The notes beneath the pieces are model-generated. The model was not told where the DNA came from and searched no databases. It saw nothing but the letters and a program-made list of their open reading frames with translations. Shown one piece after another: positions 190 through 23,334 of a DNA stretch of 23,407 nt. Source of the DNA: a virus; IMG/VR virus record IMGVR_UViG_3300025138_000373, positions 1 to 23,407 of that record. One strand, given 5' to 3'. A program made the translations under genes and the position numbers. The first letter of the stretch is position 1; each line of letters starts with the position of its first letter.

Positions 190-1093
190 AAATTTAGTTG
201 TTATTTTGTGTTATTGTGACACTCAACCTAAACTTGACTTATTATCTAGTATGGTTGAATCACTAAAAGACAAGTATAATATAATGATATCTACTCATTC
301 AGCTATACCTTTAAAAATACAAAAAGATATAGATTATTTAGTTTATGATAAATCTAACCCAATTTTACGGTACCCTGAAAGAGGGATGCAGTTTTGGAAA
401 AAAATATTAGATATAAGTATTAAAATAACTCATATCATGGATGATTATGGGTGGACTGTATTTAATTTAAAACAAAATGCAATTTCATTAGGTAAAAATT
501 TAGATTATAATTATTATTCCTTTATTAATTATGATGTAGAAATAACTAAGGAAGTATTAAAAACACTAGATAATCCAAAAGATTTTATTTGTAGTAATTT
601 TATAGACCCTAATTCAAAAAAATCATTATTCCCTAGTTTATTATTTAATATTTTAAGTAAGGATAATGCTAATAAAATTCACAACTTAATATCTAAAAAA
701 TCTTATACAGAATCCCTTCCAGGTACTGATCATGCCTTGTATTTTGATGCCGAAGCATATTGGGGAAAATTAATTTCAAATTTTGATTATGTAAAATTAG
801 ATACTAAAATAGAAGGAATTTTAGAAACCGGAAACTCTGATGTTTTAAATTATAACAAACTAAATAATGAATTTAGATTATTTTTTGATCAAACCCAATT
901 ATTAGTATATGACAATTTATCTAAACATGGTATAAAATTAAATATTAATACCCAAGATATAACAATAACACAGGTAAACCAATTAATAAAATTTTCTACA
1001 ATAAAAAATATCGGTTTTTATCACGATAAAAGGTTAATTGATCTTACTGATATATACCATAATAAAGATCGCAATAAAATAGAAAATTTTTAA
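179..1093 (+). CDS. probable glycosyltransferase (GT-A-like)
   Basis: A 304-residue protein whose N-terminus (residues 5-60) looks like a nucleotide-sugar-binding GT-A fold: a hydrophobic beta strand followed by CYCDTQPK, a THSAIP segment near residue 40, and a DYLVYDKSNPIL stretch at 52-63. A strand ending in NYDVE (about 118-121) could hold the metal/sugar-nucleotide-binding acidic pair. Many large phages carry such enzymes to glycosylate DNA, virion proteins or host surface glycans; the acceptor cannot be told from sequence. No signal peptide or membrane segment is seen, so it should be cytoplasmic. It overlaps the preceding gene by 11 bases and is followed by a late-type promoter motif, so it appears to end an operon. 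The family assignment is by pattern only; a different Rossmann-like enzyme is possible. Confidence 0.5.
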   Translation: MKNKNLVVILCYCDTQPKLDLLSSMVESLKDKYNIMISTHSAIPLKIQKDIDYLVYDKSNPILRYPERGMQFWKKILDISIKITHIMDDYGWTVFNLKQNAISLGKNLDYNYYSFINYDVEITKEVLKTLDNPKDFICSNFIDPNSKKSLFPSLLFNILSKDNANKIHNLISKKSYTESLPGTDHALYFDAEAYWGKLISNFDYVKLDTKIEGILETGNSDVLNYNKLNNEFRLFFDQTQLLVYDNLSKHGIKLNINTQDITITQVNQLIKFSTIKNIGFYHDKRLIDLTDIYHNKDRNKIENF

Positions 1094-1103
1094 TATTTAT
1101 AAT
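1092..1103 (+). promoter_or_regulatory. putative late promoter, AATATTTATAAT
   Basis: An exact copy of the 12-base motif that recurs before structural genes. It overlaps the stop codon of the preceding gene and lies 14 bases before the ATG at 1118. No TTTG -33 box stands at the expected distance, so it resembles -10-only late promoters of T4-like phages, although the T4 word TATAAATA is different. Confidence 0.55.
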
Positions 1104-3805: not shown

Positions 3806-3817
3806 AATATTTATAAT
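3806..3817 (+). promoter_or_regulatory. putative late promoter, AATATTTATAAT
   Basis: Exact copy of the late motif in the 42-base gap between sheath and tube genes, 16 bases before the tube ATG. It would add a separate transcript for the tube protein, which is needed in high copy number. Confidence 0.6.
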
Positions 3818-4351: not shown

Positions 4352-4378
4352 AGCTTGGCTTCGGTCAGGCTTTTTCTT
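4352..4378 (+). terminator. rho-independent terminator with UUCG tetraloop
   Basis: An 8-bp stem AGCTTGGC / GTCAGGCT (4352-4359 with 4364-4371, including two G-U pairs) encloses the loop TTCG (4360-4363), giving the very stable C(UUCG)G tetraloop. The run TTTTCTT follows immediately (4372-4378) and four As precede the stem. It lies 29 bases after the tube stop codon and before the late motif of the next gene. Confidence 0.85.
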
Positions 4379-4383
4379 ATATT

Positions 4384-5420: not shown

Positions 5421-5432
5421 AATATTTATAAC
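5421..5432 (+). promoter_or_regulatory. putative late promoter, AATATTTATAAC
   Basis: Copy of the late motif with a single change (final T to C), 11 bases before the ATG of the tape-measure gene. The leader would be very short, which fits the other copies. Confidence 0.55.
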
Positions 5433-7447: not shown

Positions 7448-7459
7448 AATATTTATAAT
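7448..7459 (+). promoter_or_regulatory. putative late promoter, AATATTTATAAT
   Basis: Exact copy of the late motif three bases after the tape-measure stop codon and 14 bases before the next ATG. No further copy is seen down to 14445, so it may serve the whole baseplate block. Confidence 0.6.
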
Positions 7460-13566: not shown

Positions 13567-14445
13567 ATGTACTACCCAAAATCACAAATACAAGAAGGTT
13601 TATACACTAGTGGAGGTGAATACATGATAGTTTCTACATCAGAACCTTATACTGGTTACTACTACCAAGTATCAAACAACCAACGCTTTACAGGTAAAAA
13701 CCCATCTACACCACCTAATAACCAATTGGTGAATATACCACCATCACAAACCCCAAATAGGGAAGGTACTGATGTTGGGTCTGGGATACAGGATACATCT
13801 GACAATTCTTCCTTTTGGTCTTACCAATACCAAACTTTAAAAAAACAACAAGGAATTATATTAAAAACACCACCTTCAACCCCATTACAAACAATCCCAC
13901 TCCCAACGAGTAATGATTATTCTAATGGTTTCTTTAATAGGTACTTTTTATACAATTTTAAGAATAATTCCACTATAGAAACTAATAAATCTACTTATAC
14001 CCAATTTACAACAAAATCCCCAAAGGTGCAAATTGATATGTTTACTCCATTAAAAGTATTTTGGAGTTTAACCGGAAAATTAAATATAGTTTATAAATCA
14101 AACAATAGTAATATAATTAGTATAGAACAAACCAATAAAGTTTATGGGTTTAGTAATTATTTTAAGAAAAAATATACTCAATATTATCAATATAGTAAAA
14201 ATGAAAACATTTATAGTAATGGGGAGGAATTAAAATATTCTAAATCTAAAAAACCATATATTGGTTATTATCATATCCACCCAACAAAAGGGCCAATGGT
14301 AGGAAGACAACATACTATGGAAGCTCATGATTATTTGGAGTTTGCACAAACTGGTTCTATATTAAACCCACTAACCCCTACTATTCAATCCGGTTCATAT
14401 GAAGAGCCTTCTAAGACGATTACAAATACATTTGGAGGCTACTAA
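13567..14445 (+). CDS. unidentified baseplate-block protein
   Basis: A 292-residue protein beginning two bases after the hub stop codon, so almost surely in the same operon. The N-terminus (residues 1-45) has YYPKSQIQEGLYTSGGEYMI then YTGYYYQVSNNQRFTGKNP; residues 50-110 are Pro/Thr/Gln-rich and probably extended; the middle is Asn/Lys/Tyr-rich; residues 232-248 contain GYYHIHPTKGPMVGRQH, with three His that could bind a metal or lie in a structural turn. No signal peptide or membrane helix is seen. The position at the end of the tail block suggests a virion baseplate or adhesin-linking part. I do not recognise a characterised family. Confidence 0.6.
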   Translation: MYYPKSQIQEGLYTSGGEYMIVSTSEPYTGYYYQVSNNQRFTGKNPSTPPNNQLVNIPPSQTPNREGTDVGSGIQDTSDNSSFWSYQYQTLKKQQGIILKTPPSTPLQTIPLPTSNDYSNGFFNRYFLYNFKNNSTIETNKSTYTQFTTKSPKVQIDMFTPLKVFWSLTGKLNIVYKSNNSNIISIEQTNKVYGFSNYFKKKYTQYYQYSKNENIYSNGEELKYSKSKKPYIGYYHIHPTKGPMVGRQHTMEAHDYLEFAQTGSILNPLTPTIQSGSYEEPSKTITNTFGGY

Positions 14446-14460
14446 AAGCATTCGTATATT
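14431..14460 (+). promoter_or_regulatory. bipartite promoter TTTGG-N15-TTCGTATATT before the polymerase gene
   Basis: TTTG (14431-14434) and TATATT (14455-14460) are separated by 20 bases, matching the Bacteroidota primary-sigma layout (-33 TTTG, -7 TAnnTTTG). The element TTCGTATATT and the TTTGG box recur with identical spacing at 15537-15566 and 16196-16225. The -33 part overlaps the end of the preceding gene. The ATG of the polymerase gene is 18 bases downstream. Confidence 0.75.
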
Positions 14461-14478
14461 AGGGTAAAATAAAGGTAT

Positions 14479-15750
14479 ATGTACTGGCTTGTAGAAAACG
14501 AGGAACAGTTAAATGTTTTGATAAATAGTGGTTATAAAAAAGCTTTCATTGAGGTAATACCTTATAATGATACGATACACCCTGTACTAAATCACGTAAG
14601 TTTAGTGTATATTAGACCAATTGAAGCGAGCAAAGGCTTTATGGTATGTGTTACGCATAGTGAGTCTTTAAATGTTTTAAATACGCGTGTAAACGAATTG
14701 ATAGATAAGTTTGAAGTGTTGTATTGCCGAGATAAAAAAGAAATATTACATTATTTCCCAAACAAAACTCTTTATGACATAACACCACCTCCTCATACAT
14801 ATATACGCCCATCTACACCAACACATGAGTTATATTATAGTAAACACAAGGATAACCATGAGTTAAACCTAATTATACCGATTGTTAAACACTATGAAAT
14901 ATGTGAGACAATTTTTGGAGATCTAAAAGCGAATATTAACAGAAAAAAAACAAAATATGATGACTTCTTTAACAGTAGAGTATCCGTGGTATTCAACGCC
15001 ATCGAGAGAAATGGCATACGCATACACAATGACACCTTCAGTGAATACTTCCACGAGGTTGACGGTGAATACGTCCACACTCAGTTCAACTTAAAAACAA
15101 CAACAACAAGACCATCAAATAAATTTAAAAATGTAAATTATGCAGCACTTAATAAAGAAAATGGATGTAGGAAAAGTTTTATACCACGTAATAATAGGTT
15201 CGTGGAAATTGATATTAGTGCTTATCACCCTAGTTTGGCTGCTAATCTCATTGGTTATGCTTTTACCACTGTTGATATTCACTCTCACTTTGCATCCTTA
15301 TATGGCGTGGATTATAAAAAATCGAAAGAACTTACCTTCAAACAGCTCTATGGAGGCGTTTTTGAAAATTACAAAGGTCTGGAATTCTTTCAAAAAATAG
15401 AAAAATACGTAGGAGAAGCATGGCGTAAATTTGAAAGCGACGGGTTTATAGAATGTGAAATTTCTGGATATAGATATAAAAAGGAAAATTTACAAAACAT
15501 GAATCCACAAAAATTATTTAATTATTTGCTACAAAATTTGGAGACGTCAATGAATGTTCGTATATTATGGGATATGTGTGGTATATTGCGGAAATGCAAA
15601 ACAAAGCTAGTACTTTACACATATGATTCATTTTTGTTTGATTTAGATAACAGTGAAGAAGGCATATTAGAAGAGATTAGAGAAGTATTTAAAAAATATA
15701 AATTAAACATTAAAGAAATAGAAGGTTATGACTACAATTTTACAGAATAG
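14479..15750 (+). CDS. small divergent family A DNA polymerase
   Basis: A 423-residue polymerase with family A signatures: the TATGR-like segment TTTTRPS (R211), RKSFIPR (231-237), motif A EIDISAYHPSLAA (catalytic D245), motif B YKKSKELTFKQLYGG (K283, F287, Y291), an NYLLQNLETSMN helix (N348, Q352) matching the family's NxxxQGxxAD motif, and motif C YTYDSFLFD (D383). In motif C the usual HDE is YDS, so the first and third positions are replaced. It is far shorter than E. coli Pol I (928) or T7 polymerase (704). The first 130 residues may be a degenerate 3'-5' exonuclease domain: a strand pattern is present but the DxE motif is absent. No 5'-nuclease domain is attached; a separate one lies at 18179. 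T4 relatives normally use a family B enzyme (gp43). Confidence 0.8.
   Translation: MYWLVENEEQLNVLINSGYKKAFIEVIPYNDTIHPVLNHVSLVYIRPIEASKGFMVCVTHSESLNVLNTRVNELIDKFEVLYCRDKKEILHYFPNKTLYDITPPPHTYIRPSTPTHELYYSKHKDNHELNLIIPIVKHYEICETIFGDLKANINRKKTKYDDFFNSRVSVVFNAIERNGIRIHNDTFSEYFHEVDGEYVHTQFNLKTTTTRPSNKFKNVNYAALNKENGCRKSFIPRNNRFVEIDISAYHPSLAANLIGYAFTTVDIHSHFASLYGVDYKKSKELTFKQLYGGVFENYKGLEFFQKIEKYVGEAWRKFESDGFIECEISGYRYKKENLQNMNPQKLFNYLLQNLETSMNVRILWDMCGILRKCKTKLVLYTYDSFLFDLDNSEEGILEEIREVFKKYKLNIKEIEGYDYNFTE
15537..15566 (+). promoter_or_regulatory. bipartite promoter TTTGG-N15-TTCGTATATT inside the polymerase gene
   Basis: Same two boxes and same 15-base gap as the copies at 14431 and 16196, but within the polymerase coding region (codons for roughly residues 353-363). 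It would start transcription about 155-160 bases upstream of the next gene, the 155-residue protein. Exact retention of both boxes within a coding sequence argues for function. Confidence 0.55.
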
Positions 15751-16195
15751 TACCAATATGTATAATGCGGAATATGATGTTATTACTAACATCCAAAACG
15801 CAGGAGACTTGAATAATAAATTATTTTGTACCTTTACCGACTTAGAAGGTTTAGATACGCTTATAGAAGAAATACAATCAAAGTATACAATCATATATAA
15901 TAAAATGTTTGTGCTTGAAATTGTAGGAAAAAACGAATATGTTGTAACATATAACGTAGACCAAGGGAATGTCCAAACAATCCCTGATAATACTATTCTG
16001 GTTCATAGAAAAAAAGAATCTAATACCTTGTATACTATTAACGCCCTTAACGAATTAATTAAGAAATTAAATGGGGGTGTTGTTGATACTAAATATAAAG
16101 TTGATTGGCAACATTATAAAAATTGTGTTTTACTTACCCAACACAATGATTTAAATCAATTAAATACAAAAATACACAAAATAATTGAAATATAA
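15728..16195 (+). CDS. unidentified 155-residue protein between polymerase and SSB
   Basis: No known family is recognised. The sequence has an alpha/beta look: DLEGLDTLIEEIQSKYTIIYNKMFVLEIV (38-66), YVVTYNVDQGNVQTIPDNTILVHRKKESNTLYTINALNELIKKLN (71-115) and a C-terminal WQHYKNCVLLT...KIHKIIEI helix. The basic HRKKESNT segment and the neighbours (polymerase, gp32) make a nucleic-acid-related role plausible but unproven. The ATG at 15728 overlaps the polymerase stop by 23 bases; the in-frame ATG at 15758, seven bases after that stop, is an equally good start and would remove 10 residues. Two copies of the bipartite promoter flank the gene. Confidence 0.7.
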   Translation: MTTILQNSTNMYNAEYDVITNIQNAGDLNNKLFCTFTDLEGLDTLIEEIQSKYTIIYNKMFVLEIVGKNEYVVTYNVDQGNVQTIPDNTILVHRKKESNTLYTINALNELIKKLNGGVVDTKYKVDWQHYKNCVLLTQHNDLNQLNTKIHKIIEI

Positions 16196-16225
16196 TTTGG
16201 TTCCCCAAAATATAGTTCGTATATT
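16196..16225 (+). promoter_or_regulatory. bipartite promoter TTTGG-N15-TTCGTATATT before the SSB gene
   Basis: TTTG (16196-16199) and TATATT (16220-16225) are 20 bases apart, in the 71-base gap between the 155-residue gene and the gp32-like gene; the SSB ATG is 41 bases downstream of the -7 box. With four closely packed genes following, this may be the main promoter for the SSB-UvsX-nuclease group. Confidence 0.75.
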
Positions 16226-16266
16226 CAGTTACATATAAACAGTTATAATTAAAAATAAGTTACATT

Positions 16267-17094
16267 ATGGATTTAAATGCACTAAAGCAAAAATTGGATA
16301 CCCTCCAATCAAAACCACAGGGTGGTCAAAAGACCGATTACTCATTAATTTATTGGAAACCTACATTAGGTAAACAACAAGTTAGAATTGTACCATCAGC
16401 GTATGATGCTACAAACCCATTTACAGAACTTAAGTTCTATTATGGTATTACTAATAAAGTAATGATCTCACCAGCTAATTTTGGTGAAAAAGACCCAATT
16501 GCTCTATTTGCTGGGAAACTACGTGAAGGAGAGTATAACAAAGAAAATTATGTATTAGCTAAAAAGTTAGATGCTAAAAACCGTGTTTTTGTTCCCGTTA
16601 TAGTACGTGGAGAAGAAGATAAAGGTGTTAGATTATGGCAATTTGGTAAAATGGTATATGAAGAATTATTAGCACTTGCTGTTGATGATGAAATTGGAGA
16701 TTACACTGATATTGTAGGTGGAAGAGACCTCACAGTAGAAACAGTAGGACCAGAAGCAACAGGAACTCCTTATAATAAATCATCAGTACGTGTTAGACTA
16801 AAAACTTCACCACTTAGTGAAGATGCTTCATTAGTAGAAAAATGGACAAGTGAGCAACCAAACCCTAAAGGGGATTTATTTAAGCGTTATTCATTTGAAG
16901 ATATGAAATCTGCATTAGAAAAATGGTTATCACCAGAGGAGGATTCGGAAGAAATAGTTTCATCTCCTGTAACATCAAACCCATCTACTAATTTTAGTTT
17001 AGATACTTCAAAAGCTAAACAAAGTAAAGTAGACCAATTTGATTCATTATTTGATGATAAAAAAAGTAATGATAACGATGATCTTCCTTTCTAA
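16267..17094 (+). CDS. single-stranded DNA-binding protein (T4 gp32-like)
   Basis: A 275-residue protein (T4 gp32: 301) that coats single-stranded DNA at the fork and during recombination. The gp32 layout is visible: a short N-terminal helix (residues 1-20) of the kind used for cooperative binding, an OB-fold core beginning DYSLIYWKPTLGKQQVRIVPS (about 24-44), the VFVPVIVRGEEDKGVRLWQFGKMVYEELLALA block, and an acidic C-terminal tail from about 223 onward. The T4 zinc-binding His/Cys cluster is absent; there are no Cys in that segment. The protein ends in DNDDLPF, which matches the C-terminal tip of bacterial SSB (DD-hydrophobic-PF) rather than that of gp32. It is preceded by a bipartite promoter and followed after two bases by uvsX. 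Confidence 0.9.
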   Translation: MDLNALKQKLDTLQSKPQGGQKTDYSLIYWKPTLGKQQVRIVPSAYDATNPFTELKFYYGITNKVMISPANFGEKDPIALFAGKLREGEYNKENYVLAKKLDAKNRVFVPVIVRGEEDKGVRLWQFGKMVYEELLALAVDDEIGDYTDIVGGRDLTVETVGPEATGTPYNKSSVRVRLKTSPLSEDASLVEKWTSEQPNPKGDLFKRYSFEDMKSALEKWLSPEEDSEEIVSSPVTSNPSTNFSLDTSKAKQSKVDQFDSLFDDKKSNDNDDLPF

Positions 17095-17096
17095 AT

Positions 17097-18170
17097 ATGG
17101 CAAAAAAATCAACAAAGTCTCTCTCAGCAGCAGTGTCTGCTGAGATCAAGAGCAAATTTGATCTTAATAAGTTTAAAGCTTCTAAAGGTTTAAATAAAAA
17201 CGTTAAATTTAAGGAACAAAAATGGATTCCATTATCACCAGCATTTCAAGAAGTATCTGGAGTACCTGGTATTCCAATGGGACATATAGTATTACTTAGA
17301 GGACATTCTGATACTGGTAAAACTACAGCGTTATTAGAAGCAGCAGTATCTGCACAAGATATGGGAATTTTACCTGTATTTATCATTACCGAGATGAAAT
17401 GGAATTGGGAACACGCAGCTCAGATGGGGTTAAAAGTTAATTTAATCAAGGATGATGAAGGTAATGTTATAGATTATGAAGGTGACTTTATCTATGTTGA
17501 TAGAGAAACTGTACATACTGTAGAAGATGTAGCTGCATTTATAATGGATTTACAAAACGAACAGAAAAATGGTAATCTACCAACAGATTTAGCTTTCTTT
17601 TGGGATTCAATTGGATCAATTCCGTGTGCTATGTCAGTTGAAAAACTGAAGAATAACAATGAATGGAATGCTGGAGCAATGTCAACACAATTTGGTAATA
17701 CAGTAAACCAAAGTATTGTAATGTCTCGTAAAGAATCATCACCATATACTAACAGTTTAATTGCTATTAACAAAGTATGGACCGCTAAAGCAGAATCACC
17801 TATGGGTCAACCAAAAATGATGAACAAAGGTGGAATGGCTATGTGGTATGACGCAACATTTGTAGTTACATTTGGTAATGTTTCAAACGCTGGTACATCT
17901 AAAATTAAAGCAATTAAAGGTGGTAAGCAAGTTGAATGGGGTAAACGTACTAATTTACAAATTGACAAAAACCATGTTAATGGTATAGCAGCAAGAGGTA
18001 AAATTGTTATGACTTCTCATGGATTTATCGAAGATACAGATAAAGATAAAAATGCTTATAAAAAAGCACATGCAGATGAATGGTCTAAAATCCTAGGAGG
18101 AGGAACATTCAAGATTGTAGAAGATGATGAAGATGTAACCCCAGTCCTTTACGACGTACAGGACCTATAA
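17097..18170 (+). CDS. uvsX: UvsX-like RecA-family recombinase
   Basis: A 357-residue ATPase of the RecA/UvsX family, which forms filaments on single-stranded DNA and catalyses strand exchange in recombination-dependent replication and repair. The P-loop GHSDTGKT is at residues 69-76, preceded by IPMGHIVLLRG; a FIITEMKW segment holds a candidate catalytic Glu (E99); Walker B is LAFFWDSIGS with D170; a QFGNTVNQ block at about 187-194 and a Gly-rich KGGMAMWYDATFVV strand follow. The N-terminus is Lys-rich. T4 UvsX has 391 residues. It starts two bases after the SSB stop, and gp32 and UvsX act together at the same substrate in T4. Confidence 0.92.
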   Translation: MAKKSTKSLSAAVSAEIKSKFDLNKFKASKGLNKNVKFKEQKWIPLSPAFQEVSGVPGIPMGHIVLLRGHSDTGKTTALLEAAVSAQDMGILPVFIITEMKWNWEHAAQMGLKVNLIKDDEGNVIDYEGDFIYVDRETVHTVEDVAAFIMDLQNEQKNGNLPTDLAFFWDSIGSIPCAMSVEKLKNNNEWNAGAMSTQFGNTVNQSIVMSRKESSPYTNSLIAINKVWTAKAESPMGQPKMMNKGGMAMWYDATFVVTFGNVSNAGTSKIKAIKGGKQVEWGKRTNLQIDKNHVNGIAARGKIVMTSHGFIEDTDKDKNAYKKAHADEWSKILGGGTFKIVEDDEDVTPVLYDVQDL

Positions 18171-18178
18171 ACACAAAC

Positions 18179-19216
18179 ATGAAGCACAAAGAGTTATTTA
18201 GTCTCTTGGATAATATTCAAGAAGACCAGGAAGTACCTACCCAAAATAGGCATGATAGAGTATTAATCTTAGATGGTTTAAATCTATTTTTTAGAAATTT
18301 TGCCATGATGAATATGGTTAACCCCGATGGGATTCATATTGGAGGGTTAGGTGGTTTCTTCCGCTCTTTAGGTGCAATGATCAGACAAACAAACCCAACA
18401 TCTGTTTATGTAGTATTCGATGGGCAAGGTTCTACGGTAAACCGTAAGAACCTGCTCTCCGAGTACAAGGGGACAAGAAATTTATCAAGGATTACTAATT
18501 GGGAAGCATTTGACAATATTGAGGAAGAACATGATTCAAAAATTGACCAGATCGTCCGTATTATCCAATATTTAAAATTACTACCAGTTAAAACTACTAT
18601 CCTCGATAAAGTTGAAGCGGATGATATTATAGCAGTATTAGCTGAAAAATTAGTAGAAAAACATGATTCGACTTGTTTTATTGTATCTAGTGATAAGGAT
18701 TTCTTACAACTAGTAACTGATAAGATTATTGTGTATAGACCAATGGAGAAAGAATACTACACTCCAAAAGTTGTAGAAGAGAAATTTGGTTTACTACCTC
18801 ATAACTTTATTTTACATAAAACCCTACTAGGTGACAATTCAGATAATATTAAAGGTATTAAAGGTTTAGGTGCTAAAGGTATATTTAAAAAATTCCCTGA
18901 ATTAAAAACTCAAGAATTAAATTTAGATGATATTTTCGACATTTCTGCTAGGAAATACAAAGAACATATTGTATATTCACGTATAGTTCAGGAACGATCT
19001 CGTATTGAAACCAATTATAAAGTAATGGATTTAAGCGTACCCATGATTGATGATAAAGGTAAAGAACATATTGATAAATTAATAACTGAGGATTTACCTG
19101 ATTTTAACCCTGAAATGTTTATTTCGTTTTACAATGAAGATAAATTAGGAGGTATGATCAGAAATTTAGATTCGTGGTTAAAAGATATATTTGCTATGTT
19201 TCCAACTTACAAATAA
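18179..19216 (+). CDS. 5'-3' exonuclease / RNase H-type flap nuclease
   Basis: A 345-residue PIN-like (FEN) nuclease, the type that removes RNA primers and flaps behind the fork. Metal-binding acidic residues stand in the expected order: D32 (LILDGLN), D81 (VVFDGQG), E146/D148/D149 (VEADDI), D172/D174 (SSDKDF), and D219/D222 (GDNSDNIKGIKGLGAKG), which leads into the helix-hairpin-helix DNA-binding loop. T4 RNase H (305 residues) and the 5' domain of Pol I are relatives; this stand-alone enzyme probably complements the polymerase here, which lacks that domain. The first 25 residues are an extra, charged N-terminal tail. It begins eight bases after uvsX. Confidence 0.88.
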   Translation: MKHKELFSLLDNIQEDQEVPTQNRHDRVLILDGLNLFFRNFAMMNMVNPDGIHIGGLGGFFRSLGAMIRQTNPTSVYVVFDGQGSTVNRKNLLSEYKGTRNLSRITNWEAFDNIEEEHDSKIDQIVRIIQYLKLLPVKTTILDKVEADDIIAVLAEKLVEKHDSTCFIVSSDKDFLQLVTDKIIVYRPMEKEYYTPKVVEEKFGLLPHNFILHKTLLGDNSDNIKGIKGLGAKGIFKKFPELKTQELNLDDIFDISARKYKEHIVYSRIVQERSRIETNYKVMDLSVPMIDDKGKEHIDKLITEDLPDFNPEMFISFYNEDKLGGMIRNLDSWLKDIFAMFPTYK

Positions 19217-19235
19217 TAAAATAAAAAGGTTATAG

Positions 19236-20609
19236 ATGACATTAAATAGCATAAACCAATACGGACACGATTTTCAAATTAAAGTGTTATCATCCTTATT
19301 AACACATAAAGAATTTTTAGTTAACATCCATGATATTATATCAGAAGAATACTTTGAAAACCAGGCGCAAAAGTGGGCTATTAAAGAAGTTTTAAGGTAT
19401 TATGATAAATACCATACCACCCCTTCTTTAGATATATTAAAGGTAGAACTACTAAAAATAGATAATGAAGTATTACAGTTATCTATTAAAGAACAACTTA
19501 AATTAGCATATGTAACCTCAGATGATGATTTAGAATATGTTCAAGAAGAATTTACAAATTTTTGTAAAAACCAACAATTAAAGAAGGCTTTAATGTCATC
19601 TGTGGATTTATTGAAAGCAGGAGATTTTGATGGTATTCGTTTTATTGTAGATAATGCTTTAAAAGCAGGACAAGATAAAAATATAGGACATGAATATATT
19701 AAAGATATTGAAGAACGTTATAGAGAAAATTCAAGAGAAACTGTTCCAACCCCTTGGCCTAAAATTAATCAATTATTACAAGGTGGACTTGGAAATGGAG
19801 ACTTTGGTCTTATATTTGGTAATCCAGGAGGTGGTAAATCTTGGTCATTAGTATCATTAGGAGGACATGCTGTTAGATTAGGTTATAATGTGCTTCATTA
19901 TACCTTGGAGCTAGGAGAAGAATATGTTGGTAAACGATATGATGCCTTTTTTACTAAAATACCAGTTAATAAAATAGATTCTCACAGAGATCAAGTAGAA
20001 GAACTTATACCCCAATTACCTGGTAAGTTAATTATTAAAGAATACCCAACAGGACGTGCATCTGTATCCACTATTGAATCTCATATTGCAAAAAGTACGA
20101 GCATGGGGGTTAAACCTGATCTGGTAATTATTGATTATGTAGATCTACTTTCATCAAGAAAAACAAATCGTGAGCGTAAAGATGAAATTGATGATATTTA
20201 TACAAGTACTAAAGGATTAGCTAGACAACTTGATATACCAATTTGGTCTGTTTCACAAGTTAATCGTGCGGGTGCAAATGACAATGTTATCCAAGGAGAT
20301 AAGGCTGCAGGATCTTATGATAAGATTATGATTACTGATTTTTGTATGTCTCTTTCTCGTAAAAAAGAAGATAAAGTTAATAATACAGGTAGATTTCATT
20401 TAATGAAAAATAGATACGGTATGGATGGTATTACTTTTGGTATAGAAGCAGATACATCTACTGGTCATTTTACTATAAAAGATGAATATATTGAAGGAGA
20501 AGAATCTGAAAGTTTTGCACCTTCTTCTAAATCTAACAAGTTTGATACTGATGTCGATACTTTTGATAAACAACTGTTACGTAAGAAATTTTTTGAATTA
20601 AACCCTTAA
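19236..20609 (+). CDS. DnaB-type replicative helicase (T4 gp41-like)
   Basis: A 457-residue hexameric helicase, close to T4 gp41 (475). Residues 1-110 form the helical N-terminal domain (HDFQIKVLSSLLTHKEFL...). The RecA-like motor has a P-loop GNPGGGKS at 195-202, an HYTLELGEEYVGKRYDAF segment (H1a, catalytic Glu), Walker B VIIDYVDLLSS with D300, and the SVSQVNRAG motif with sensor Gln. It unwinds the fork 5'-3' on the lagging strand. A gene for its primase partner is not in the window. An AAAAAGG stretch ahead of the ATG (19224-19230) is one of the few places with a possible Shine-Dalgarno. The gap to the nuclease gene is 19 bases. Confidence 0.9.
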   Translation: MTLNSINQYGHDFQIKVLSSLLTHKEFLVNIHDIISEEYFENQAQKWAIKEVLRYYDKYHTTPSLDILKVELLKIDNEVLQLSIKEQLKLAYVTSDDDLEYVQEEFTNFCKNQQLKKALMSSVDLLKAGDFDGIRFIVDNALKAGQDKNIGHEYIKDIEERYRENSRETVPTPWPKINQLLQGGLGNGDFGLIFGNPGGGKSWSLVSLGGHAVRLGYNVLHYTLELGEEYVGKRYDAFFTKIPVNKIDSHRDQVEELIPQLPGKLIIKEYPTGRASVSTIESHIAKSTSMGVKPDLVIIDYVDLLSSRKTNRERKDEIDDIYTSTKGLARQLDIPIWSVSQVNRAGANDNVIQGDKAAGSYDKIMITDFCMSLSRKKEDKVNNTGRFHLMKNRYGMDGITFGIEADTSTGHFTIKDEYIEGEESESFAPSSKSNKFDTDVDTFDKQLLRKKFFELNP

Positions 20610-20628
20610 TATTAAATAAACACAATAA

Positions 20629-21615
20629 ATGGCAAAAAGAGACATTACTAAAGAAAGAATTGTTTACAAACCTTTTGAATACCAAGAAGCATCAGATTAT
20701 TGGTTAAAACAACATCAAGCACATTGGTTACATACAGAAGTACCTATGATGTCAGATGTTAATGATTGGAAACAAAATTTAACAGAATCTGAAAAAAATA
20801 TTATTGGTACTATCTTAAAAGGATTTGCTCAAACTGAAACTGTTGTAAATGATTATTGGACTAATTTAGTAACAAGTTGGTTTAGAAAACCTGAAATAAT
20901 TAAAATGGCTGTTACATTTGGTGCTTTTGAAACCATTCATGCTGAAGCTTATTCTTTATTAAATGAGGAATTAGGATTAGATAACTTTGCTGAGTTTTTA
21001 GAAGATGAAGCAACAATGGCTAAAATTGAAGCATTAACTACCGTAAGAGATTCTCATGATGGAACCCCAAATTGGCATGAGAGAGCAAAATCATTAGCAA
21101 TATTTTCAGCATTTACAGAAGGTGTTAATTTATTTAGTTCATTTGCTGTTTTATTATCATTTAAATTAGATAATAAACTTAAAGGAGTAGGACAAATTGT
21201 AGAATGGAGTATCAGAGATGAGTCATTACATTCAGATGCTGGTTGTTGGTTGTTTAGAACATTAATGGATGAAAAACCTGAATACAACACCCCAGAATTA
21301 AAAAAAGACATTGAAGAAGCAGCATTATTATCCTTAAAACTAGAATTAGATTTTATTGATAAAGTGTATGAAATGGGGGATCTACCAGGTTGTCCAAAAT
21401 ATGATCTAACTTCTTTTATTAAACATAGAGTAAACACTAAAATGAGTGATTTAGGGTATGGACCTATCGTTAATGGTATAGATAAAGATGCAGTGAAAAG
21501 AATGAAATGGTTTGATAGTTTATCTGGAGGTAAACAACACACAGATTTCTTCGCAAATAGAGTAACGAATTATAGTAAAGGAGTCCAAAATTGGGACGCA
21601 GGATCATTATTTTAA
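20629..21615 (+). CDS. nrdB: ribonucleotide reductase class I beta subunit
   Basis: A 328-residue radical-generating subunit that, with NrdA, reduces ribonucleotides to dNTPs. Metal ligands fit the class I pattern: E70 (FAQTE), E101 and H104 (FETIHAEAY), E164 (FTEGVNLF), E198 and H201 (RDESLH). Spacings match E. coli NrdB (84-115 equals 70-101; 204-238 equals 164-198), so E70 stands where E. coli has Asp84. Y108 is at the position of the radical Tyr122. Glu at the first position occurs in class Ic and related manganese-using enzymes; a dimanganese class Id type is known from flavobacteria. There is no ATP-cone. nrdA starts three bases after it, so the two are co-translated; the beta-before-alpha order is the reverse of T4 (nrdA first). 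Confidence 0.95.
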   Translation: MAKRDITKERIVYKPFEYQEASDYWLKQHQAHWLHTEVPMMSDVNDWKQNLTESEKNIIGTILKGFAQTETVVNDYWTNLVTSWFRKPEIIKMAVTFGAFETIHAEAYSLLNEELGLDNFAEFLEDEATMAKIEALTTVRDSHDGTPNWHERAKSLAIFSAFTEGVNLFSSFAVLLSFKLDNKLKGVGQIVEWSIRDESLHSDAGCWLFRTLMDEKPEYNTPELKKDIEEAALLSLKLELDFIDKVYEMGDLPGCPKYDLTSFIKHRVNTKMSDLGYGPIVNGIDKDAVKRMKWFDSLSGGKQHTDFFANRVTNYSKGVQNWDAGSLF

Positions 21616-21618
21616 AAT

Positions 21619-23334
21619 ATGGAAAACAACGCACTACAAGTAGATTATAGTAACTGGGAAGCTGGAAAACAGTACCCAGAATGGATGGATGAAATTTCAC
21701 TAGCTACAATTTCTAAAGGTTATCTATTACCTAATGAAACCGTAAGAACAGCTTATAAGAGAGTATCAAATGCAGCGGCTAATAGACTTAAAAAACCAGA
21801 ACTAGCAAATAAATTCTTCAAAATAATGTGGAATGGATGGTTAGGATTAGCATCACCTGTGTTGTCAAATATGGGAACTGATAGAGGTTTACCTATTTCG
21901 TGTTTTGGTGTTGATACACCTGATTCAATACGTGGAATCGGTTTAACTAACGCGGAACTAATGAAGTTAACAGCATCCGGTGGTGGTGTAGGTATTTCGT
22001 TATCTCGCATTAGAGAACGTGGAGAAGGAATTACTGGAAATGGTAAAAGTGAAGGTGTAGTGCCGTGGGCTAAAATATTTGATTCATCAATTATAGCAAC
22101 TAACCAAGGAAATGTAAGAAGAGGGGCAGCATCTGTCAATTTAGATATTGAACATGGAGACATTGATGAGTTTTTACAAATTCGTAGACCTAAAGGTGAT
22201 CCTAATAGACAATGTCTTAACTTACACCAATGTGTTGTTGTAGGTGATTCATTTATGAGAAAATTAGAAGCAAGAGATCCAGAATCAATGAATAAATGGG
22301 CTACTGTTTTAAAATCTAGAATGGAAACAGGTGAACCTTATATAATGTATAAGGATAATGTTAATAAAGATAACCCAATTGCTTATAGGTTAAACAATTT
22401 AGAAGTATCAATGACAAATATTTGTTCTGAAATTACCTTATTTACGGATGAAGAACATTCATTTATTTGTTGTTTATCTTCGATGAATTTAGCAAAATAT
22501 GATGAGTGGAAAGATACAGATGCCGTTGAGTTAGCCACTTGGTTCTTAGATGGTGTAATGCAAGAATTTATTGATAAATCAGCTGGTAAAACCTCATTAG
22601 AAAGGACATATAATCATGCTCGTAAAGGTCGTGCTTTAGGTTTAGGTGTAATGGGTTGGCATTCGTTTTTACAACAAAAAGGATTACCTTTTAACTCTAT
22701 AGCATCCACAGCTCACACACATAACATATTTTCAGATATTAGGGGTAAAGCAGAAAAGGCATCAATGGCTTTAGCTCAAGAATATGGAGAACCATTATGG
22801 TGTAGAGGGACAGGTATGAGAAATACTCATTTGTTAGCTATAGCACCAACAGTATCAAATTCAGTAATTGTAGGTGGTATCAGTGCAGGTATTGAACCTT
22901 TACCCGCTAATATTTATACATTTAATGGTGCTAAAGGAACATTTATCCGTAAAAATAAAGAATTACAGAAAATTTTAATTGAAAAAGGAGAAGATAAAGA
23001 TAAATGGTGGGATGTAATGTTAGAACAAGAGGGCTCAGCACAAGGCCTACCAGATAATGTTTTAACCCCTGAAGAAAAAGAATTATTTCTAACATTTCCT
23101 GAAATTAATCAATTAGAATTAGTTAGACAAGCAGCAATCAGACAACGTTATATTGATCAAACACAATCATTAAACCTATCATTTGATGTTAATGATTCAC
23201 CAAAATGGATTAATCAGGTACATTTAGAGGGGTGGAAATTAGGTATTAAAACATTTTATTACTTAAGAACAGATTCAGTAATTAAAGGAGATTTAGGATC
23301 AAGAATGGCAGATTGTGTAGCTTGTGATGGTTAG
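21619..23334 (+). CDS. nrdA: ribonucleotide reductase class I alpha subunit
   Basis: A 571-residue catalytic subunit, complete at both ends but much shorter than E. coli or T4 NrdA (about 760), because the N-terminal ATP-cone (overall activity site) is absent; the protein begins almost directly with the catalytic ten-stranded barrel. Active-site residues are present: C95 (LPISCFG) and C284 (FICCLSS) as the redox pair, N267/C269/E271 (NICSE), Y547/Y548 (KTFYYLRT) for radical transfer, and the C-terminal redox pair C566/C569 (ADCVACDG). ASGGGVGISLS (119-129) is the usual substrate-loop region. Without the cone, feedback shut-off by dATP through that site is not expected, which suits a phage that needs high dNTP levels. 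Confidence 0.95.
   Translation: MENNALQVDYSNWEAGKQYPEWMDEISLATISKGYLLPNETVRTAYKRVSNAAANRLKKPELANKFFKIMWNGWLGLASPVLSNMGTDRGLPISCFGVDTPDSIRGIGLTNAELMKLTASGGGVGISLSRIRERGEGITGNGKSEGVVPWAKIFDSSIIATNQGNVRRGAASVNLDIEHGDIDEFLQIRRPKGDPNRQCLNLHQCVVVGDSFMRKLEARDPESMNKWATVLKSRMETGEPYIMYKDNVNKDNPIAYRLNNLEVSMTNICSEITLFTDEEHSFICCLSSMNLAKYDEWKDTDAVELATWFLDGVMQEFIDKSAGKTSLERTYNHARKGRALGLGVMGWHSFLQQKGLPFNSIASTAHTHNIFSDIRGKAEKASMALAQEYGEPLWCRGTGMRNTHLLAIAPTVSNSVIVGGISAGIEPLPANIYTFNGAKGTFIRKNKELQKILIEKGEDKDKWWDVMLEQEGSAQGLPDNVLTPEEKELFLTFPEINQLELVRQAAIRQRYIDQTQSLNLSFDVNDSPKWINQVHLEGWKLGIKTFYYLRTDSVIKGDLGSRMADCVACDG

Follow-up and report, generated by a model that had tools for sequence, protein, structure and literature searches.

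The locus and its repeated element

The window, by which we mean the whole stretch of 23,407 nucleotides that was analysed, is part of the genome of a T4-like myovirus and encodes tail sheath, tube and baseplate proteins, a polymerase, SSB, a RecA-like recombinase, an exonuclease, a DnaB helicase, NrdB and NrdA (Table 1). Among cultured phages the nearest is Flavobacterium phage vB_FspM_immuto (immuto), whose recombinase shows 60% identity and whose gene order is the same; close relatives are common in IMG/VR. Considering that immuto grows on Flavobacterium and that a related phage contig was binned in a Winogradskyella MAG, the hosts of these phages are likely Flavobacteriaceae. The polymerase ORF has an immuto orthologue that is annotated as DNA polymerase family A, while Pfam and PHROG searches gave no match for the 155-aa ORF that follows it. 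Searches for known RNA elements and tRNAs in the window returned none.

Table 1. Positions of the genes and sequence elements in the window
Feature	Position	Strand	Remarks
AATATTTATAA, candidate late promoter box	1092..1102	+	before ORF 1118
AATATTTATAA, candidate late promoter box	3806..3816	+	before tail tube gene 3834
Terminator-like hairpin and T-run	4352..4375	+	fold -10.6 kcal/mol, z = -4.05
Copy 4 (weaker), CTTGG-N15-TTCTTATATT	4354..4383	+	2 mismatches; 42 bp upstream of baseplate hub ORF 4426
AATATTTATAA, candidate late promoter box	5421..5431	+	before ORF 5444
AATATTTATAA, candidate late promoter box	7448..7458	+	before ORF 7474
Copy 1	14431..14460	+	exact match; upstream of DNA polymerase gene (ATG 14479), 18 bp from end of copy to start codon; predicted RNA start near 14467
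Copy 1, -33 box TTTGG	14431..14435	+	
Copy 1, extended -7 TTCG	14451..14454	+	
Copy 1, TATATT	14455..14460	+	
Family A DNA polymerase-like gene	14479..15750	+	phrog_17 DNA polymerase, E 8.9e-08; downstream of copy 1, contains copy 2
Copy 2	15537..15566	+	exact match; within polymerase CDS, 161 bp upstream of ORF 15728; predicted RNA start near 15573
155-aa ORF	15728..16195	+	open reading frame after copy 2
Copy 3	16196..16225	+	exact match; 41 bp upstream of gp32 (SSB) ATG 16267; predicted RNA start near 16232
gp32 mRNA leader	16226..16266	+	three GTTAYA repeats, unstructured
gp32 - recA/uvsX - 5'-3' exonuclease - DnaB helicase - nrdB - nrdA	16267..23334	+	Pfam, immuto synteny

A first-pass annotation of this DNA had described three identically spaced copies of a bipartite element, and all three were recovered as exact matches to TTTGG-N15-TTCGTATATT, with the reported spacing of 15 bases and all on the plus strand; the minus strand of the window holds no exact match. 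In 200 dinucleotide shuffles, in which any 5-mer, any gap of up to 30, any 10-mer and three copies with dissimilar spacers were allowed on both strands, no such triple occurred, and neither did an exact TTTGG-N15-TTCGTATATT. The same free choice applied to the real window returned only this element and its one-base-shifted form. A chance origin of the triple is ruled out by the shuffles, and the spacers differ from copy to copy, which rules out a copied segment, as the annotation had maintained. Its description of the spacers as unrelated is mostly correct, but base 8 is an A in 79% of 146 sites in related phages (see below) and some spacers form hairpins with TTTGG.

The fourth and weaker copy precedes the baseplate hub gene, and a site before this gene was also found in a related phage (G001) and in immuto, making it a conserved exception among the late genes. 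Considering this copy, together with the sites before unrelated genes in the relatives, the claim that the element is confined to replication genes had to be abandoned. Within the run that starts with gp32, no further sites were found before uvsX, the exonuclease gene or nrdB. The hairpin at the hub gene overlaps copy 4, so that terminator and putative promoter have bases in common. Such terminator-like hairpins, in which the spacer itself folds and the left arm contains the -33 box, were also observed at 33321-33350 and 67961-67990 of immuto and at several sites of another related phage (G009).

Conservation and distribution of the element in related phages

For the comparison we collected 80 loci from IMG/VR that surround the SSB gene; the counts given below refer to distinct upstream regions and the reversed sequence served as control. 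The element was present upstream of the SSB gene in nearly all 80 loci, with a spacer of exactly 15 bases whose sequence varies. A site at up to 3 mismatches was found in 62 of the 63 upstream regions of gp32 orthologues (51 exact; control 0/63) and in 38 of the 45 upstream regions of polymerase orthologues (control 0/45), and the helicase orthologues had a site in 7 out of 42. No site was found upstream of the orthologues of the recombinase, exonuclease, NrdB, sheath, tube, tape-measure-like and ORF 7684 genes, the structural-gene sequences being few. Over 930 kb of related loci, all 135 matches with at most one mismatch were located on the gene strand. The comparison shows the sequence of the element, its exact spacing, and the strand and position of the sites, and it shows that they are conserved and recur throughout the genomes. 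The copies look like real transcription start signals that natural selection has maintained at numerous positions in a family of large Bacteroidota viruses.

Thirteen phage records had all their sites on the gene strand, and the control with the reversed pattern was almost empty. Six larger records together contained the 146 sites mentioned above (at up to 2 mismatches), the -7 boxes of which are mostly outside ORFs, with a median distance to the ATG of 22-41 bases. A relaxed pattern yielded 51 sense sites in immuto, against 3 antisense sites and 4 for the control; these are mostly located around 30 bp upstream of early, replication and metabolism genes and are densely packed at 60-76 kb, where the genes are small. 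Sites recurred across distant genomes upstream of the genes for polymerase, SSB, DUF932 (five genomes), DksA and endolysin, and sites upstream of primase, thymidylate kinase, PhoH and GroES genes were each found in a single genome. The late structural genes are largely without sites, the exceptions being the hub gene and the terminase gene of G001 (3 mismatches), and a gene-by-gene check across the phage genomes found none before the genes for recombinase, exonuclease, sheath, tube, major capsid and wedge. The view of the first-pass annotation that the copies constitute a promoter family is borne out in so far as the sites have sigmaA geometry, occur on the coding strand only, lie near start codons and precede the same genes in the relatives, and its early or middle assignment agrees with the pre-late genes that the sites appear to mark.

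For T4-like phages of Bacteroidota, our literature searches retrieved no map of the promoters. The element may provide a sequence rule by which these genomes can be split into early/middle and late transcription units, and a phage-host pair in culture that has it exists, namely immuto on Flavobacterium LMO8.

In immuto, the gene at 72676-72930 (NC_055915; L207:22676-22930) is annotated on the minus strand. A sense site (72647-72676) lies directly before it and is followed by a plus-strand ATG, and for this reason the strand given in the annotation may be wrong.

The copy within the polymerase gene

Lying within a coding sequence, copy 2 could have no promoter role and be a mere by-product of the encoded protein. 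It does encode conserved residues, and recombination may explain the patches that the relatives have in common. Nevertheless, a site with at most one mismatch was present at this position in 32 of 54 relatives, against 0.74 expected when codons were resampled synonymously with the proteins kept, although relatedness and recombination make this sample effectively smaller than it looks. The same resampling gave no comparable excess in the rest of the polymerase gene. The internal site occurs in one of two registers that are 21 bp apart, and well-supported branches of the tree force at least 3 changes of register label. Among the carriers of register 1, synonymous identity is 0.95 in the element and 0.77 elsewhere in the gene. 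Measured against all relatives at once the synonymous identity is not raised, a result that speaks for a by-product but that we consider misleading because the two registers are mixed in it. Taken together, these results make a by-product of the protein an unlikely origin, and the internal copy appears to be under selection.

Comparison with Bacteroidota promoters

Bacteroides promoters read by sigma-ABfr/sigmaA have a -33 TTTG and a -7 TAnnTTTG, as described in the promoter passages of PMC7366714. All three exact copies contain TTTG-N20-TA, and the TTTG of Bacteroidales chromosomal sites peaks at the equal offset (-24), so that the Bacteroidota layout proposed earlier (TTTG, 20 bp, TAnnTT) stands. 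The two types of site also have the TTCG directly upstream of the -7 box in common. They differ in the end of the -7 box: TAnnTT is present, but none of the 102 intergenic sites in the window's clade combines T at -6 with G at -5, and in most related phages the box mostly ends in TA; in five of the six other phage genomes, 77-96% of the sites have an A at -5. One related phage (G010) kept the TG, in combination with the same -33 box and TTCG, and the matches in Bacteroidota chromosomes were followed by TG in 32 of 50 cases. A further difference with the sigma-ABfr promoters is that the distance between TTTGG and TTCG is fixed at 15 in the phages.

The TTCG had been put forward as phage-specific. 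In chromosomal loci rich in Bacteroidales, which were found through the motif, TTCG preceded TAnnTTTGC in 14 of 130 sites when the seed sites were left out (a second count keeps them), whereas around 0.5 was expected from base composition, and it was the commonest tetramer at this position. Two whole Bacteroidales genomes contained TTTG-N16-TTCG-TAnnTTTG 83 and 70 times, against 2 and 1 for the reversed control. Given this enrichment before the TAnnTTTG boxes of Bacteroidales chromosomal promoters, the TTCG is a host-type promoter part and no phage invention, and a phage-specific TTCG is ruled out. In the Bacteroidales chromosomes (G019 and G020) the TTCG before TAnnTTTG has the appearance of an extended -7 element for the primary sigma factor; the promoter passages of PMC7366714 do not mention such an element.

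Outside this setting the pattern was not enriched, neither in Flavobacterium and Kaistella nor in 60 Flavobacteriaceae genomes, which rules out a general Flavobacteriaceae promoter. Likewise, 11 unrelated Flavobacteriaceae phages and T4 showed no excess of the element, and a general promoter of Flavobacteriaceae phages is ruled out for those 11. The sigmaA promoters of F. johnsoniae and F. psychrophilum have the TA..TT core of the -7 box in common with the phage sites, but they almost invariably carry a G at -5 and have little -33 box, if any (PMC6847099, PMC9723704; for F. johnsoniae this is based on 241 promoters, in which the -33 motif is hardly evident), the reverse of what is seen in the phages. 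The element resembles an older form of the host start signal, in which a part lost by the likely hosts is kept and a near-essential base is missing. This raises the question why the phages keep a -33 box and TTCG that their likely hosts have given up, yet drop a base that those hosts hardly ever drop.

Who reads the element

The recognition segments of sigmaA, LTRERVRQIKEKA in region 4.2 and that of region 2.4, are equal in Flavobacterium, Winogradskyella and Bacteroidales, and the sigmaA of Flavobacteriaceae should therefore be able to read the element. We consider it probable that the element is a pre-late promoter of a T4-like lineage of Bacteroidota myoviruses that is read by host RNA polymerase with sigmaA; promoter identity, timing, the polymerase involved and the RNA starts are, like every statement on transcription made here, deduced from sequence. 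The primary sigma factor (sigma-ABfr type) would contact TTTGG via region 4.2 and TTCG-TATATT via regions 2.4/3, and RNA would start around 12 bases past the first T of TATATT; at Bacteroidota sigmaA promoters the start lies 4-5 bases downstream of the -7 box. The strength of the -33 box, together with the extension by TTCG, would compensate for a -7 box without the terminal TG. Within the window, the element would drive the polymerase gene, the run gp32-uvsX-exo-helicase-nrdBA and one baseplate gene, ORF 15728 would probably be transcribed from the copy inside the polymerase gene, and the late genes would use a separate box, AATATTTATAA.

Reading by sigmaA is supported by the position-locked conservation at gp32 and the polymerase gene despite the drift of the spacer. 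Moreover, immuto and G009 show no excess of host-like TAnnTTTG promoters, and since no other early-type motif was found in them the element is the sole visible candidate for first transcription. Unless a factor comes in with the virion, such transcription has to rely on host polymerase that is still unmodified, which argues for recognition by host sigmaA. Against it speak the -33/-5 pattern, opposite to that of the F. johnsoniae promoters, and the lack of enrichment in the 60 Flavobacteriaceae genomes and 11 unrelated phages, as would be expected if the reader were lineage-specific. Given the missing G and the occurrence in this phage lineage only, a phage factor may be involved. Tentatively, unmodified Flavobacteriaceae holoenzyme may read sites without G at -5 poorly, and a virion-borne or early phage factor might retune host sigmaA to TTTGG/TTCG, separating phage from host transcription, with the internal copy of the polymerase gene having moved between two registers; we regard this combination as possible, though not as the expected outcome.

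In T4, the phage proteins AsiA and MotA act on the sigma factor and on the DNA, and the middle promoters, used with AsiA and MotA, have an activator box at -30 in place of the -35 element. By analogy, the element could be a middle-type promoter that needs an early phage protein on sigmaA or on the DNA, which would make the holoenzyme tolerate the lack of TG in the -7 box and rely on TTTGG/TTCG. This would fit the loss of a G that the hosts hardly ever lack, as well as the occurrence in a single phage lineage, but the element also precedes the small early-region genes of immuto and G009, where no other early motif was found, TTTGG takes the sigma -33 position with no extra box, the information profile of the 146 sites contains no upstream activator box, and G010 has TG with the same -33 box and TTCG. 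Considering these points we judge a middle-type promoter of this kind to be rather improbable. The likeness with the early and middle promoters of T4 is in the organization, i.e. a pre-late family in many copies before replication and small early genes and a separate late box, whereas the phage sites have the Bacteroidota sigmaA layout and no MotA box was seen.

A candidate late box and a sigma-like protein

The AATATTTATAA copies of the window are found on the plus strand only, 23-28 bp upstream of four late-side ORFs. In the window 4 of 4 copies lie within 60 bp of an ORF start, and the same holds for 12 of 12 in G001, 6 of 6 in G009 and 6 of 7 in G012, with 0-1 in antisense. On this positional evidence AATATTTATAA is a candidate late promoter of these phages. 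The T4 late promoter, TATAAATA, is read with sigma gp55. The resemblance lies in an AT-only box near late genes and a sigma-like phage protein; AATATTTATAA differs from TATAAATA in sequence, and unlike gp55 the phage protein is larger and matches the late sigma family weakly.

This sigma-like protein (232-245 aa; L207:28174-28869, which is immuto gp118, and L360, L361, L362 and L336) shows weak matches to sigma70 region 2 (PF04542) and to the T4 late sigma family (phrog_234). Its predicted fold is of moderate quality (pLDDT 72.6, pTM 0.45) and the sigma-factor neighbours are suggestive but not decisive: sigma factors make up most of the best PDB fold matches, none of which reaches E<0.001. Given its conservation in immuto, G001, G008, G009 and G012, the protein might itself read the pre-late element. 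The layout of the element is, however, that of host sigmaA, the immuto sigma gene is itself located downstream of such elements, and the T4 logic and the weak phrog_234 match indicate the late genes, which have AATATTTATAA. Recognition of the element by this protein is thus improbable, and the protein fits the late box better than the pre-late element.

The gp32 leader

Two to three GTTAYA repeats were present in 39 of 41 distinct gp32 leaders, whereas shuffled leaders almost always had 0, and folding of the leader of the window (16226-16266) gave no structure. The repeats may constitute a translational operator, and considering that the element itself lies near replication genes one could suppose that it is no promoter, but a protein-binding or RNA element such as a replication origin or an operator in the mRNA leader. 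This is very improbable in view of the fixed spacing with a drifting spacer, the single orientation relative to the genes, the exact sigma geometry and the tens of copies per genome upstream of unrelated genes. Separate from the element, the leader repeats are a candidate site for self-regulation of SSB, by analogy with T4, in which gp32 regulates its own mRNA.
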